Below, piece after piece: positions 1 to 4,753 of a DNA stretch of 64,000 nt. The notes beneath the pieces were generated by a model that saw only the letters and a list, made by a program, of their open reading frames with translations, was not told the origin of the DNA and did no database searches. The position numbers and the translations under genes are program-made. Within the stretch, counting starts at the first letter, position 1; each line of letters opens with the position of its first letter. Source of the DNA: Bradyrhizobium sp. WSM3983 (GTDB taxonomy: Bacteria; Pseudomonadota; Alphaproteobacteria; Rhizobiales; Xanthobacteraceae); NCBI RefSeq assembly GCF_000473045.1, contig NZ_KI421489.1, forward strand, positions 62,192 to 126,191, given 5' to 3'.

Positions 1-660
1 CTCGGCCATCGCGAACGGCTGCGCGAGCGCTTCTACAGCTCGGGCGCGGATGCGCTCAGCGACTACGAGCTCCTGGAGATGGCGCTGTTTCCGGCGCTGC
101 CGCGGCGCGACACCAAGCCGCTGGCGAAGACGCTGATCAAGATCTTCGGCTCGTTCGCCGAGGTCGTCCACGCGCCGGTGGCACGGTTGCGGGAGATCGA
201 CGGCGTCGGCGAAGCCGCCATCAACCAGCTCAAGCTGATTGCGGCGGCCGCGCACCGTGTCGCCAAGGGCGAGGTCAACAGCCGCAACGCGCTGTCGTCC
301 TGGAACGAGGTGATCGCCTATTGCCGCACCAGCATGGCCTTTGCCGACAAGGAGCAGTTTCGCCTGCTGTTCCTCGACAAGCGCAACCAGCTCATCGCCG
401 ACGAGGTGCAGCAGACTGGCACCGTCGACCACACGCCGGTCTATCCGCGCGAGGTGGTCAAGCGCGCGCTGGAGCTGTCGGCGACCGCGTTGATCCTGGT
501 GCACAACCATCCCTCAGGCGATCCCTCCCCCTCGCAGGCCGATATCCAGATGACCAAGGCGATCATCGACATCGCCAAGCCGCTCGGGATTGCCGTGCAT
601 GATCACATCATCGTCGGCAAGAACGGACATGCGAGTTTGCGGGGGATGCGGTTAATCTGA
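1..660 (+). CDS. radC: RadC family JAB-domain protein, 5' end missing
   Basis: The reading frame is open from base 1 ([11 protein letters not shown]..., then [10 protein letters not shown]), so the N-terminus lies outside the window; 219 residues are present. An N-terminal UPF0758 helix-hairpin-helix region is followed by a C-terminal JAB/MPN metalloprotease-like domain. Its metal-binding motif [14 protein letters not shown] is visible at about residues 167-180, followed by DHIIVG. The family is called DNA repair protein RadC, but its true role is unsettled. The last 28 codons are repeated, diverged, at 1841-1924 downstream of three inserted small genes, so this 3' end may be a replaced version. 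The ATG at 79 is internal, not the start. Confidence 0.95.
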
Positions 661-731
661 CCTGGAGCCGAATTGCGCTTCTCGGTTGTGCTAGGAATTT
701 GAAACAGCGTCGACACGTTGAGCGAAGATGC

Positions 732-1079
732 ATGCCACGGCTGTCTAATCTGGATCGTGCAGTCATCCCTGAGGCAAAGATCGCGGGTTATCTGTTGAGC
801 CTCCGGCACCCCGGCGGGCGCGCGAAAGCACGATTCCTTGAGGGCTTCGGGTTTCGTGCCAAGGATTGGCGCAAGCTGCGTGATGCCATCATCGTCCACG
901 CGACGGCAAACGACATCACTGCGTTGCACCAAACTCCATTCGGCACCGGATATGAGATCGACGGCCCGCTGCCGACACCAGACGGTCGTAACCCGATCGT
1001 TCGTGTGGTATGGTTTGTGGAGACGCAGGAAACTGCTCCTCGCCTGGTGACCTTGGTACCGAGGATTGTTGCTCGATGA
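732..1079 (+). CDS. DUF6883 domain protein
   Basis: A 115-residue protein whose whole length resembles the DUF6883 domain: a PEAKIAGYLL-type start, GRAKARFLEGFGF in the middle and a C-terminal IVRVVWFVE...APRLVTLVP strand pair. ATG at 732 was chosen; an in-frame TTG at 699 would add 11 residues with no better ribosome site. The stop overlaps the next ATG by four bases (ATGA), so translation is probably coupled. The domain also occurs, from memory, at the ends of larger phage-like or toxin-like proteins; its biochemistry is unknown to me. It is the first gene of a three-gene cassette behind radC. A toxin-antitoxin or defence role is inference only. Confidence 0.75.
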   Translation: MPRLSNLDRAVIPEAKIAGYLLSLRHPGGRAKARFLEGFGFRAKDWRKLRDAIIVHATANDITALHQTPFGTGYEIDGPLPTPDGRNPIVRVVWFVETQETAPRLVTLVPRIVAR

Positions 1080-1300
1080 TCGATGAACTGGACCTCGTCG
1101 TCTTGAAACGCGATTTGCCCGCGGAGCGGCTAGCTGCCGGTGATGTTGGGACCGTCGTCTTGGTGCATCGGCACGGTGAAGGCTATGAGGTTGAATTCAC
1201 GACGCTGTCGGGTGACACCGTTACGGTCGTGACCCTCGATGCGGCCGACGTGCGACCGGTCGAGCCACGCGAGATCGTTCATGCGCGTGCGGTGAGGTGA
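1076..1300 (+). CDS. DUF4926 domain protein
   Basis: A 74-residue protein matching DUF4926: LDLVVLKRDLP, then GDVGTVVLVH, GYEVEF and a VVTLDAADVRPV ending. This looks like a small SH3-like beta barrel. ATG at 1076 overlaps the DUF6883 stop by four bases and the next gene follows after six bases, so all three are one transcription unit. DUF4926 proteins often sit beside small proteins of unknown function and can be read as the partner of the DUF6883 protein. No enzyme residues are evident. Family call is fairly safe; function is unknown. Confidence 0.75.
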   Translation: MIDELDLVVLKRDLPAERLAAGDVGTVVLVHRHGEGYEVEFTTLSGDTVTVVTLDAADVRPVEPREIVHARAVR

Positions 1301-1306
1301 CTGCTG

Positions 1307-1753
1307 GTGGCTGGGCAAAGAGTCGAATTCTCTGTGACCGCGACCATCCCGTGCACAAATGCGGTTCGTGATGAAATCTGGGATCGGCAAACTGCGTACG
1401 GAGCAGTCGAATACGCGGGCAACCCTACCCTCGGTCAGTGTTATCCGACCTCGCGAGTGGTGCAACATTACTATCCGGCAACCGAAATCATCAAGGGTAA
1501 TGTCTGGACGGGTCAGAGAGAAGAAGTTCACTTTTGGAATGCTCTGCCTACTGGCGACTGCTGGTATCACATTGACTTCAGCTGGCAGCAATTTCCCGTA
1601 GGCTCAGTTGTCCGAGACTTCGTCGTGCTCGACCGTCAACAGTTGGTTGACAGTGAGGTCACGATCCAGCGTTGTTCTCTTTTGCTGAAGCGCGTCGAGA
1701 GTTACTTGCGAAATCTGAGTGCAACCGATCCTTGGCCAGATCAAAGCCCTTAA
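1307..1753 (+). CDS. YunG-like protein, possible papain-fold enzyme
   Basis: A 148-residue protein starting at GTG 1307, six bases after the DUF4926 stop. The pattern GQCYPTSRVVQ around Cys45, HFWNALP around His75 and HIDFSWQQFP around Asp90 resembles the YunG family, where a conserved GQC, an H-W-N and a D-x-T/S-x-x-QF motif recur. Cys45-His75-Asp90 would fit a papain/transglutaminase-like triad; this is inference from spacing and not shown. By eye its base composition is less GC-rich than radC or the DUF4239 gene, which suggests transfer. It is the last gene of the cassette inserted behind radC. An active cysteine enzyme working with the two upstream small proteins is one possibility. Confidence 0.6.
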   Translation: MAGQRVEFSVTATIPCTNAVRDEIWDRQTAYGAVEYAGNPTLGQCYPTSRVVQHYYPATEIIKGNVWTGQREEVHFWNALPTGDCWYHIDFSWQQFPVGSVVRDFVVLDRQQLVDSEVTIQRCSLLLKRVESYLRNLSATDPWPDQSP

Positions 1754-1840
1754 GTCACGCCTCGATCGCAATTGGCGCCCCTTCTGCCTGCAGCTAGTCT
1801 CGGGCTCGGGTTCACGAAACACGACATCTGCTGTTGGGCC

Positions 1841-1924
1841 CCAAGCCGCTCGGCATCGCCGTGCACGACCACATCATCGTCGGGAAGAGCGGACATGCCA
1901 GCCAGCGCAGGATGCGTTTGATCT
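1841..1924 (+). pseudogene. Second, diverged copy of the radC 3' end
   Basis: These 84 bases align without gaps to 575-658 of radC, with about 70 identities by hand count, mostly differing at third codon positions. They encode [20 protein letters not shown]..., 24 of 27 residues identical to RadC, but the TGA stop is replaced by TCG and the frame runs on to a stop at 1954. Nothing upstream of 1841 resembles radC. The fragment marks the right border of the 732-1753 cassette and suggests insertion into radC with a new 3' end supplied. Confidence 0.85.
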
Positions 1925-1952
1925 CGGGCTTCGAATCACGTCACAAGGGACC

Positions 1953-2774
1953 ATGAGCGATTGGCTGCACAACCAGCCGGTGCCCTTGATGGCGCTGGTG
2001 ATCTTCGGCTTCACCTATCTGCTGGCGGCAGTGGTGTTCGTCTCCGTCGCGTTGGTGGCGACGGGGGAGCGCGCGAAAGCGCTGAAGGCGATCTCGCCCG
2101 GCATGCTGCCGGTGCTCGGCATCATTTTCGGCCTGTTCGTCGCCTTCACCGCGGCCCAGGTCTGGGGTGACAGCGACCGCGCCGGCGCCGCGGTGAGCCG
2201 CGAGGCCAGCGCGCTTCGCAGCGCCGTGCTGCTCGCCGCCGGCCTGCCGGCGGAGCAGGAAGCCAAGCTGCGCGGGCTGGTGCGTGACTATGTCGAGCAG
2301 GCCGTCACGGTGGAATGGCCGGAGATGGCGCATCAGGAGGCCTCCCTGAAGGCGACGCCGCCGGCGCTCGCCGAAGCCCTGCAGCTCGTCGTCACCATGG
2401 CGCCGCAGGGTCGGGCACAGGAGACCACGCAGCACGAGATCGTCGCCGCGCTGGAGCAGGCGCTGGATGCGCGGCGGCAGCGGATCATCGTCAGCCTGGC
2501 CTCGGTCAACTCGGTGAAATGGTGGTGCCTGTATCTCCAGGCCCTGTGCGAGCTGCTGGTGATCGGCTTCGTTCATTGCGACAACCGCCTGGGATCGGCG
2601 ATCGCGATGGGCCTGTTTGCGACCGGCGTCGCCACCTCGGTGCTCCTGATCGCGGCGCATGACCGCCCGTTCACCGGCCAGATATCGATCTCGCCGGAGC
2701 CGCTGCGCCAGATCATGCCGGAGGCGCCCGGCGGGACGGAATTGACCGCGCCGGCAAACAGTCTTCGGCGCTAG
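1953..2774 (+). CDS. DUF4239 family (bestrophin-like) membrane protein
   Basis: 273 residues from ATG 1953, preceded by AAGGGA at 1945-1950; the frame extends upstream to 1719 but that part reads through the cassette border and is not coding. Four membrane segments are visible: residues about 10-35 (LMALVIFGFTYLLAAVVFVS), 47-68, 189-207 and 214-235, with a soluble helical region between the second and third. The HDRPFTG motif after the last segment is typical of DUF4239. The family resembles bestrophin-type channels, but no function is established. Its stop shares the CTAG palindrome with the convergent VOC gene. Confidence 0.8.
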   Translation: MSDWLHNQPVPLMALVIFGFTYLLAAVVFVSVALVATGERAKALKAISPGMLPVLGIIFGLFVAFTAAQVWGDSDRAGAAVSREASALRSAVLLAAGLPAEQEAKLRGLVRDYVEQAVTVEWPEMAHQEASLKATPPALAEALQLVVTMAPQGRAQETTQHEIVAALEQALDARRQRIIVSLASVNSVKWWCLYLQALCELLVIGFVHCDNRLGSAIAMGLFATGVATSVLLIAAHDRPFTGQISISPEPLRQIMPEAPGGTELTAPANSLRR

Positions 2775-3175
2775 GCGCGCGCCAGCGCGCAGTTCAGCAT
2801 CCATTGCACACCGAAGCGATCGGTGAGCTTGCCATAATAGTCGCCCCAGGGCTGGATGCCGAGCGGCGTGGTGATCGTGCCGCCTTCGGCGAGACGCGCG
2901 AACAGGTCCGTCGTTGCCTCCTGATCATCCATCGCGAGGATATGGGCAGAGCCGCGCATTGGCTCGGCGTCGTCATTGTCCGATGCATAGAAGCAGATGC
3001 CGGGGCCTTCGAACTTCGCGTGCATGATCTTGCCCCGCATCGCGGGACTCCGCAGCGGCATGCCGGGCTCGCCGTGGCGCATGATCTCGGTGACGTTGCC
3101 GAGACCGCAGGCAGCGTAGAAGGCAAGCGCCGGCTCGCACTGGGTCGTAAAAAAGAGATAGTTCGACAGGCGCAT
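2771..3175 (-). CDS. VOC family (PhnB-type) protein
   Basis: 134 residues from ATG 3175, with GAGGAG eight bases upstream; a GTG at 3184 lies too close to that site. The sequence has the beta-alpha-beta-beta-beta folds of a PhnB/3-demethylubiquinone-methyltransferase-like VOC protein: LSNYLFFTTQCEPALAFY at the start, GKIMHAKFEG and CFYASDN in the middle, GGTITTPLGIQPWGDYYGKLTDRFGVQWMLN at the end (given in fragments of the motif). These proteins are small cytoplasmic enzymes or binding proteins of mostly unknown substrate. The TetR regulator just upstream on the same strand may be co-transcribed with it. Confidence 0.85.
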   Translation of the reverse strand: MRLSNYLFFTTQCEPALAFYAACGLGNVTEIMRHGEPGMPLRSPAMRGKIMHAKFEGPGICFYASDNDDAEPMRGSAHILAMDDQEATTDLFARLAEGGTITTPLGIQPWGDYYGKLTDRFGVQWMLNCALARA

Positions 3176-3200
3176 ATTTCGCACTCCTCGCTTGAATTGA

Positions 3201-3785
3201 TCAGGTCTCTGCGCAGGCGTTGAGAGCGGCCACGCGGCAGGCGGATGCTATCGCGGCGCTGACGTCTCTGTCGGCGACCGCCCGGGCCATCGTGACACCG
3301 CCGGACAGGATCGAGAGCAGCGCCCAGGCGCGTGCGCGCCTCTCCTTGCGCGACCGGCCGGGGAGCCCGTCCGCAACCGCGGCCGCCACACGCTCGATCT
3401 CGGCCTCAAAAACCGATTTGATCCCGGCATCGGCGCGCTGGACCTCCGAGGTGAGACTCTGCAAGGCACAGCTCGATCCCAGCTCGCAGATCCGCTTTTG
3501 TCCGAGATAGAAGTCGACGAACACCTCGACCCATTTGGGACCGTGCTCGGCGCGCAAATTCTCGACTCCGATACGCAGCTCCTCAAGGCCCGCCACCAGC
3601 GCAGCCTTGAATGCCTCGCCCTTGGACGAGAAGTGCCCGTAGAATGCGCCGGAGGTGACCTCGGCCTCCTTGGCGAGACCGTCGACGCCGATGCCGCCAA
3701 AACCCTGGCGGCGGAAGCCACGGCCGGCAGCCGCGACCATGCGCGCGCGGGCCTCTTCCTTGTGACCGGACTTGTATCGCACCAC
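3201..3785 (-). CDS. TetR/AcrR family transcriptional regulator
   Basis: 194 residues from GTG 3785 (a second GTG follows at 3782). The N-terminal helix-turn-helix is clear at about residues 10-55 (ARARMVAAAGRGFRRQGFGG, then GAFYGHFSSKGEAF). The C-terminal ligand domain resembles TetR_C_6-type regulators of oxidoreductase or tautomerase genes. It is divergent from the tautomerase gene at 3943, and the gap holds CGATCG-centred palindromes at 3799-3812 and 3855-3874, the likely operators, so autoregulation and control of the tautomerase are expected. The VOC gene lies 25 bases downstream. Confidence 0.9.
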   Translation of the reverse strand: MVRYKSGHKEEARARMVAAAGRGFRRQGFGGIGVDGLAKEAEVTSGAFYGHFSSKGEAFKAALVAGLEELRIGVENLRAEHGPKWVEVFVDFYLGQKRICELGSSCALQSLTSEVQRADAGIKSVFEAEIERVAAAVADGLPGRSRKERRARAWALLSILSGGVTMARAVADRDVSAAIASACRVAALNACAET

Positions 3786-3798
3786 CGCACCTTTTTAC

Positions 3799-3812
3799 AT
3801 AACGATCGCTAT
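3799..3812. promoter_or_regulatory. Candidate TetR operator, proximal
   Basis: ATAACGATCGCTAT is palindromic around CGATCG with one mismatch. It lies 14 bases upstream of the TetR start codon, where binding would block its transcription or translation. It matches the half-sites of the perfect palindrome at 3855-3874. Confidence 0.6.
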
Positions 3813-3854
3813 TTTAATGTTGACGGCATCGCCCGCTCCGTGCGAATGCAGTCA

Positions 3855-3874
3855 CGATCGTTATATAACGATCG
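3855..3874. promoter_or_regulatory. Candidate TetR operator, 20-bp perfect palindrome
   Basis: CGATCGTTATATAACGATCG reads identically on both strands. It carries two CGATCG cores spaced by TTATATAA, with a further ATAACGATCGC repeat shared with 3799-3812. The AT-rich centre may also be part of a -10 element for the tautomerase gene that starts at 3943. Assignment to the adjacent TetR protein is inference from position. Confidence 0.7.
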
Positions 3875-3942
3875 CAATATTATCGCAAGCCGCGATCGCA
3901 GCCGGCGTTCGCGGCGCTCACATCACGAAGGGAGCTTCAATC

Positions 3943-4368
3943 ATGCCGATCACCGTCGTCGCCACGGATGGCATCTTCAGTGCCGCAGCCGAGAAAACCA
4001 TGTTCGCCGAGCTGACCGCCTCGTTTCTCAGGCATCACGATCTGGCAGGCAATGCGTTCATCACGCCGAACGTGATCGGCGAAATCAGCACTATCCCGAA
4101 AGGCCGGTCCTTCGCCGGCGGGACGTCGAACGACATCGTCGTGGTCGAATTGAAAGTCCCGTCCTTCGGGCTGGCGGCGCCTGCGCAAAAGGCGGGCTTC
4201 GTCAAAGAGGCCACCGATATCGCGTTCAGGGCCGCGGAGGGCCGTCATCCGCGCGAGCGTATTTTCGTCAACATGGTCTATGCGGTGGACGGCCTGTGGG
4301 GCATCGGCGGCAAGGCCTACACCAATGCCGAGCTCGGCGACGCAGTCAGCCGCGCCAGCGCTGCTTAA
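3943..4368 (+). CDS. Tautomerase family protein
   Basis: 141 residues from ATG 3943, preceded by AAGGGAG at 3928-3934. The protein begins MPITVV, so removal of Met would expose the N-terminal proline that serves as catalytic base in the 4-oxalocrotonate tautomerase superfamily. RIFVNMVYAVDGLWGIGGKAY in the C-terminal half fits a tautomerase strand and turn. Substrate is unknown. It is divergent from the TetR gene and shares its palindromic control region, so it is probably induced by a ligand of that regulator. The longer frame from 3772 crosses the operators and is not the start. Confidence 0.8.
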   Translation: MPITVVATDGIFSAAAEKTMFAELTASFLRHHDLAGNAFITPNVIGEISTIPKGRSFAGGTSNDIVVVELKVPSFGLAAPAQKAGFVKEATDIAFRAAEGRHPRERIFVNMVYAVDGLWGIGGKAYTNAELGDAVSRASAA

Positions 4369-4408
4369 GGCGCAGCGATCAGACATGCAGCGATCAGCAG
4401 ACATGGAG

Positions 4409-4438
4409 GCGCCGGCGCGTGCGAGACGGCGCCGGCGC
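4409..4438. terminator. GC-rich hairpin between convergent genes
   Basis: GCGCCGGCGC at 4409-4418 pairs with the same palindromic sequence at 4429-4438 across a 10-base loop. It lies between the convergent tautomerase (stop 4368) and glycine-zipper gene (stop 4448). There is no T-run, so it is only a possible bidirectional terminator. Confidence 0.4.
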
Positions 4439-4447
4439 GGTGTCGGT

Positions 4448-4753
4448 TCAGTAGCAGTATCGCGGATCGACCGGGACGTAGCGGCCGTCCGGGCGCTGCA
4501 TGTAGCAGCCGCGCTGATACGCGTAATAGCCGGACCGGCGGCGTTCGCCTTCCGAGGCGATCGCAGCACCCGTGCCGGCGCCGACGACTGCACCGATGGC
4601 CGCGCCGCGGCCACCGCCGAGCGCGCCGCCCAAGATCGCTCCGCCCACGCCACCGATGATGGCGCCGCCGACAGCGTCCTGCGCCATCGCGTCATGGACC
4701 GGGACAGCCATCGCGACCGAGAAACAAACTGCAATTCCAAGACGTCGAAGCAT
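4448..4753 (-). CDS. Glycine-zipper (YMGG-like) secreted small protein
   Basis: 101 residues from ATG 4753, with GGAGG eight bases upstream; the in-frame ATG at 4768 overlaps that site. A signal peptide (LRRLGIAVCFSVAMAVPVHDAMA, ending near AQD) is followed by a glycine zipper rich in GAIIGGVGGAILGGALGG. The C-terminus is Tyr/Cys-rich (GYYAYQRGCYMQRPDGRYV). Such proteins are usually exported and membrane-associated; the role is unknown. Two cysteines in the tail could form a disulfide. Confidence 0.8.
   Translation of the reverse strand: MLRRLGIAVCFSVAMAVPVHDAMAQDAVGGAIIGGVGGAILGGALGGGRGAAIGAVVGAGTGAAIASEGERRRSGYYAYQRGCYMQRPDGRYVPVDPRYCY

Follow-up and report, generated by a model that had tools for sequence, protein, structure and literature searches.

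Why would an intact radC gene be followed, little more than a kilobase downstream, by a second and diverged copy of its own 3' end, and what do the genes caught between the two ends do? We addressed these questions in a window of 64,000 nucleotides (the whole stretch of DNA analysed, from Bradyrhizobium sp. WSM3983), in which all features described below lie on the plus strand. The window opens inside radC (1-660, with the 5' end outside the window), which encodes an intact JAMM-domain RadC (Pfam PF04002, 2.3e-44) and has its stop codon at 658-660. In a repeat comparison, the functional 3' end of this gene (575-658) matched a copy at 1841-1924, 1266 bp downstream, at 70/84 bases (83%) without gaps, and each of the two codes for the RadC C-terminus. 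The downstream copy is displaced and truncated; it covers residues 192-219 (window numbering) and has TCG in place of the stop codon found in 11/11 uninserted relatives. Just beyond it, 1925-1952 resembles the older radC-to-DUF4239 junction of uninserted relatives (alignment by eye), and a Bestrophin-like gene (PF14023, formerly DUF4239; 1953-2774, Pfam 8e-56) forms the right flank. The remaining direct repeats within 1-4500 are just 20-27 nt long, with 74-90% identity. There is also a weak 24-nt repeat (75%) between 1798-1821 and 1922-1945, the bases just past the displaced radC end, which is possibly a trace of a further duplication, or chance.

Three small genes lie between the two ends, all above the Pfam cut-offs: DUF6883 (732-1079, Pfam 3e-34), DUF4926 (1076-1300, Pfam 4e-19), whose start overlaps the end of DUF6883 by ATGA, and a YunG-family ORF (1307-1753, with a GTG start at 1307 or 1334; PF24585, 2.6e-12, 47.4 bits against a cut-off of 27). 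The diverged repeat and the three genes between its copies, as described in the initial annotation, were thus recovered. The G+C content is 59% for DUF6883, 61% for DUF4926 and 53% for YunG, against 65% for radC, 69% for the Bestrophin-like gene and 64% for the window. Nothing else was recognised between the ends, neither an integrase nor conjugation genes, in agreement with the annotation's remark that no integrase is visible; in relatives, as shown below, an integrase does sit at radC. A scan of 1-3000 against Rfam gave nothing at gathering scores, and the cassette has no second copy elsewhere in its own genome.

That the genes were inserted at radC is supported by a comparison with relatives. 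A search of 265 genomes of the genus returned 264 matches to a query of 1-2774 and 13 to the cassette query, of which only six were longer than about 76 bp: the window's own genome and those of G208, G033, G153, G242 and G258. We then compared the radC regions of 73 genomes (74 chosen among the strongest matches, and hence no random sample, with G096 left out). An intact radC with at least one extra radC end in the stretch studied was present in 15/73 genomes, a split radC in 3/73, an intact radC with the DUF4239 gene and no extra end in 18/73 (11 of which abut directly, with no cassette) and an intact radC with other neighbours in 36/73. The last genome (G148) has only a radC 3' remnant (C1:710989-711144) that begins near the attachment core described below, and no 5' part was detected there. 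By eye, the sequence 3' of the downstream copy in the window lines up with the abutting radC-DUF4239 junction of relatives. Since this junction resembles that of uninserted relatives, the downstream end is the older one by position, and the cassette lies between the old and the working end.

The window's locus is one of a series. In loci with extra ends, the inserts ahead of DUF4239 range from about 0.7 to 11 kb, and the six loci that we read from end to end differ in their cargo, in which we noted by eye regulators, metabolic genes and an autotransporter-like ORF, among other genes; no integrase was recognised by eye in any of these six. In one genome (G055), three displaced radC 3' ends lie in tandem, each behind different cargo, and this arrangement is a readable history of insertions.

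The cassette itself is best regarded as two genes rather than the three-gene unit proposed at first. Relatives carry DUF6883-DUF4926, or DUF4926 alone, and the part of the query past window position 1380, which covers YunG, matched none of the other 264 genomes at E<=0.001, save for 37 bp in G151. The body held in common with G208 (667-1380, 86% DNA identity) runs from just past the radC stop codon to just inside the start of the YunG ORF. YunG was also absent from the viral contigs and plasmids searched, and is probably a separate addition to the cassette.

What, then, might the two remaining proteins do? An AlphaFold2 model of DUF6883 (7 sequences, pLDDT 94.2) matched the CdiA-CT toxin of Kp342 (6cp9) with Z 11.1 and an rmsd of 2.1 A over 100 residues. 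Lower matches were BrnT (Z 7.1), CdiA-CT EC3006 (7.0), RelE (5.4) and a MqsR-MqsA entry (5.0); only the 6cp9 chains exceed Z 8, and below that value a common arrangement may mean little. Foldseek also ranked 6cp9 best, at an E-value of 3e-3 only, and in a library of viral structures it placed phage minor capsid proteins at the top (8e-8). A sequence search of the PDB with the three cassette proteins and a DUF6883 profile gave no credible match. For Kp342, an active site of K157, Y160, H170, R252 and T255 and uncharged tRNA-Ile(GAU) as the substrate are given in PMC9086364. The end points of our structural alignment (10 to 151 and 111 to 259) place K16 at 157, T107 at 255 and Y20 at 161, one position from the listed Y160, the residue match being read from these end points. 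K16 and Y20 are invariant in 16/16 sequences and T107 is a threonine in 15/16; the listed histidine and arginine of the Kp342/EC3006 site are not conserved in the DUF6883 family. In the model, K16, Y20 and T107 likely occupy the lysine, tyrosine and threonine places of Kp342/EC3006. The most likely role of DUF6883 is that of a BECR-fold RNase, with tRNA as its probable substrate.

DUF4926 is predicted to fold into a five-stranded barrel of the SH3/KOW-like type (pLDDT 88.0), with NusG leading the Foldseek list (E 8.5e-3). Its likely role as the antitoxin or immunity protein of DUF6883 is suggested by this predicted fold and by the company it keeps. DUF6883 occurs in 7 and DUF4926 in 8 of 299 genomes of the phylum, and 11/12 DUF6883 places adjoin DUF4926 or a DUF4926-like stretch; the twelfth fell below the cut-off and was left out. 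Among plasmid records with DUF6883, 11/14 have a separate, adjacent DUF4926 gene, in either order. These are two adjacent, co-directional small genes kept together, and the predicted BECR fold combined with this pairing supports the toxin-antitoxin role suggested for the cassette. In the literature searched, DUF6883 is absent and DUF4926 appears in a single paper.

The pair could instead be a house-keeping or RNA-modifying two-subunit enzyme that uses the BECR fold, which would suit the copy found just after a gyrB-like ORF (L193, by eye) as well as the results of two database searches: neither protein matched in NCBIfam, nor in PADLOC (2023 library), where YunG also gave no match at E<=1. The defence role that the initial annotation offered as an alternative thus has no counterpart among the PADLOC models. 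We consider such a two-subunit enzyme unlikely, as the distribution is patchy (7/299 genomes) and the neighbourhoods include plasmids, restriction genes and an integrase, after which the pair sits in G544. The remaining plasmid records bear on this as well. One of the 14 (L214:1439-3038, from an Anoxybacillus plasmid) encodes a MuF minor capsid protein with DUF6883 at its C-terminus, followed by an overlapping 56-aa ORF that is similar to DUF4926 by eye, with no Pfam match to it. According to PMC5576092, the C-terminus of MuF proteins is a known toxin position, with small ORFs downstream. A search of a phage collection for DUF6883 itself returned none at E<=0.001. In a Thermus brockianus plasmid (L227), the interval between cas3'' and cas6 contains a DUF4926 gene together with a short match to DUF6883.

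Some copies are linked to restriction enzymes. In G413 (L194, 2-1821), the ORF of a type I restriction R-subunit ends in a fused DUF4926 domain that scores above the cut-off, and DUF6883 follows. Two of the 14 plasmid records encode a restriction-type enzyme with a DUF4926-like C-terminal tail (weak, tblastn E 0.002), and the near-identical tail in G512 matches DUF4926 with a Pfam E-value of 0.003, under the cut-off. Weak DUF4926 tails on restriction-enzyme ORFs, each with DUF6883 encoded immediately downstream, were seen at L196 (G512, 33-1830), L217 and L224. The fused arrangement resembles a toxin standing guard over a restriction system. PrrC offers a precedent, as this anticodon nuclease is kept in check in such a manner by a type I restriction system, and if the guard reading is true, a damaged restriction enzyme would set the toxin free, as with PrrC. 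More tentatively, we entertain the possibility that DUF6883 and DUF4926 form a BECR-RNase toxin module, as yet undescribed, which may have been recruited in three ways: as att-site cassettes, as a MuF phage warhead and as a restriction-enzyme guard.

How the cassette came to lie at radC is best approached through the three genomes with a split gene (G194, G198 and G057). In these, the 5' part of radC stops at 513 and the 3' part begins at 499-500, with a long distance between the two (69 kb in G194), and a tyrosine integrase starts roughly 200 bp past the truncated radC (PF13356, PF00589, and PF22022 over or near its cut-off). The island in G194 has domains of a relaxase, a TraG-type coupling protein, a T2SSE-type ATPase, TrbL, TrbI, an S26 peptidase and DUF736. 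In G198, the two radC halves (C1:1147877-1148389 and 8919183-8919341) are on opposite strands and separated by 1.5 Mb or more, which suggests a large rearrangement after integration.

Relatives of this integrase at E<=1e-100 were found in 29/257 genomes, and none at this threshold in the window's own genome. Of 31 integrase places listed, we left out the partial copies in G257 and G044 and the second copy in G211. A truncated radC lies beside the integrase at 21/25 further loci, in addition to the three split genes; no radC was found at the other four (L170, L174, L179 and L180). The core CAYAAYCAYCC (502-512 in the window), with the reading HNHPT, is present at 20/25 integrase loci and is what the observed attL sites have in common; its commonest form is TGCACAACCAYCC (500-512). 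From the overlap of the split radC halves and the attL/attR boundaries, we place the putative att core of the window's own radC at 500-512 (TGCACAACCATCC). The core encodes the HNHP of the JAMM motif, and ICEs inserting there therefore truncate RadC. We conclude that, in this genus, a family of ICEs with a tyrosine integrase uses radC as its attachment site. Its use by ICEs and IMEs is known from Mesorhizobium (PMC8627217); for Bradyrhizobium symbiosis ICEs, the main text of PMC9174649 names tRNA genes and ybgC as sites and does not mention radC. We found no report of radC as an integration site in Bradyrhizobium in the literature, judged by titles and the starts of abstracts.

The extra radC ends point to the same site. 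After removal of G096 from 25 rows, 13 of the 24 ends begin at radC 495-502, that is, at the core, and 11/24 begin elsewhere. In G208, the DUF6883-DUF4926 cassette ends exactly at the core, both att cores are present, and the stretch before the right-border core resembles by eye the border of the G194 ICE (the attR arm). The window's own copy departs from this pattern. The window contains a single exact copy of TGCACAAYCAYCC, the right border of the insert has no core (a one-mismatch copy at 1966-1978 falls inside the DUF4239 gene), and its downstream end begins at radC 575, 75 bp later than the start of the core (~500).

Taken together, we think it reasonably probable that 500-1924 is a decayed, CIME-like scar of site-specific integration at radC, with DUF6883-DUF4926 as an RNase toxin-antitoxin cassette. 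On this account, a tyrosine integrase specific for radC, which ICEs carry in relatives, would recombine at the core inside radC (TGCACAACCAYCC in most). Insertion of the ICE would split radC and leave a 3' end of 54 codons at the ICE right border. If the core of an intact radC then recombined with that of a downstream scar, a circle could be released, a cassette bringing a complete radC 3' end, and because such a cassette carries the full end, radC would stay whole on its insertion and the older end would be pushed downstream. In the window, the cassette would have been DUF6883-DUF4926, with YunG DNA gained later and the right border lost, leaving only residues 192-219 of the old radC end, without a stop codon. 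The RNase would be held in check by DUF4926, and the pair may favour retention of its own locus. Given the single core in the window, the downstream end at 575 and the 11/24 ends that begin off the core, a deletion or some other mechanism must be added to this scheme; the ICE borders that we saw carry no complete radC end. The sister genome G033, moreover, has part of the cassette but no second radC end.

Could the arrangement have arisen without an integrase? A foreign radC with its downstream genes might have recombined within the resident radC by homology, with an illegitimate joint before the resident end, whose remains would be left as a stump. Such an import would account for the lack of an integrase between the ends and of a second core in the window, as well as for the 11/24 extra ends that begin away from the core. 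A ready donor arrangement also exists: in G153, G242 and G258, radC is immediately followed by DUF6883 and/or DUF4926, and there is no second end. Moreover, in some pairs of genomes, radC is far more diverged at its 3' end than at its 5' end, such as the window's genome (G000) and G033 (18/137 vs 19/499). Against import, 13/24 ends fall within one 8-bp start window, which is unlikely for random joints (3.6e-11 under a uniform 460-620 model, calculated on 25 rows, some from related genomes and so not all independent), and the G208 border looks by eye like an ICE attR arm. We therefore regard import as unlikely, and continue to favour integration at the core.

The window's intact end is 130/137 identical to that of its close relative G024 and the rest of the gene 471/499; similarity to G024 thus stays level along radC, and nothing in the window marks the intact end as foreign. 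Among close relatives the odd one is instead the end of G033 (119/137 vs 480/499 with the window's genome; Fisher 2e-4). The replacement of the radC end is hence a step that is not visible in the window, where the intact 3' end is close to those of near relatives. The initial annotation had proposed that the cassette supplied radC with a new 3' end; the position of the older end and the tandem ends in G055 speak for this part, though the unremarkable intact end of the window does not show it.

Comparing the two 84-bp ends with those of 11 uninserted relatives, we found six nearer the intact end, four nearer the downstream end and one tied, a comparison with no power to judge ancestry, which we discarded as a criterion; the close relatives G024, G094, G224 and G176 are all nearer the intact end. 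A 3-kb marker located 57 kb from radC showed no correlation with either part of the gene, 5' or 3' (rho 0.07-0.12, 51 genomes). Where two genomes have downstream DNA in common, their radC 3' ends are more similar (0.903 vs 0.886), but so are their 5' ends (0.926 vs 0.918), and the 3' end is therefore not singled out. Divergence at radC 514-650 hardly follows that at 1-499 (r 0.11); as the 5' control (1-250 vs 251-499) is also weak (r 0.21), we make no claim of genus-wide exchange of 3' ends. One could also suppose that the radC 3' end was duplicated in tandem on the spot and that the three genes later entered between the two copies in an unrelated event. The shared stretch of only 84 bp would fit this, but we rejected it as very improbable, since the ends differ at 14/84 sites, both have a closer match in another genome (0.929 in each case) than in one another (0.833), and intact radC with extra ends recurs in 15/73 genomes, with differing cargo in those read.

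These results reach beyond the history of one locus. They provide a concrete att site for Bradyrhizobium ICEs inside the catalytic JAMM motif of radC, and because of this position the loss of RadC can be the footprint of an ICE. Displaced gene ends can be read as a record of past islands, and two protein families gain a candidate function, DUF6883 as a predicted RNase toxin and DUF4926 as its putative antitoxin.

Several known systems resemble parts of this picture. BrnT-BrnA is a type II toxin-antitoxin pair of two short overlapping genes, one with an RNase fold (predicted here); unlike that pair, the toxin gene comes first in the cassette, DUF4926 models as a lone barrel, and DUF4926 also occurs as a domain on a restriction subunit. 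The CdiA-CT tRNase toxins of Kp342 and EC3006 (6cp9, 6cp8) share the predicted fold and likely the same lysine, tyrosine and threonine places, although DUF6883 is a free-standing protein of 115 aa without the CdiA delivery part, and its partner is a predicted 74-aa SH3-like barrel. With the radC ICEs and IMEs described for Mesorhizobium (PMC8627217), the common element is the target gene; the G194 island, with its trb-type conjugation genes, DUF736 and relaxase, is similar to them, whereas the window's insert is about 1.2 kb and has neither integrase nor conjugation genes. A further parallel is the CIME, a cis-mobilizable element without an integrase that keeps its att borders, described together with ICE decay and tandem accretion in PMC5704250. 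Like CIMEs, the inserts at radC are integrase-less DNA stacked at one gene end, with att cores on both sides in G208 and tandem displaced ends in G055, and the window's insert shares the loss of integration and transfer genes. It differs in having no right att core, so that attL and attR are not both retained, and in that the target is a protein gene, entered inside its catalytic motif.
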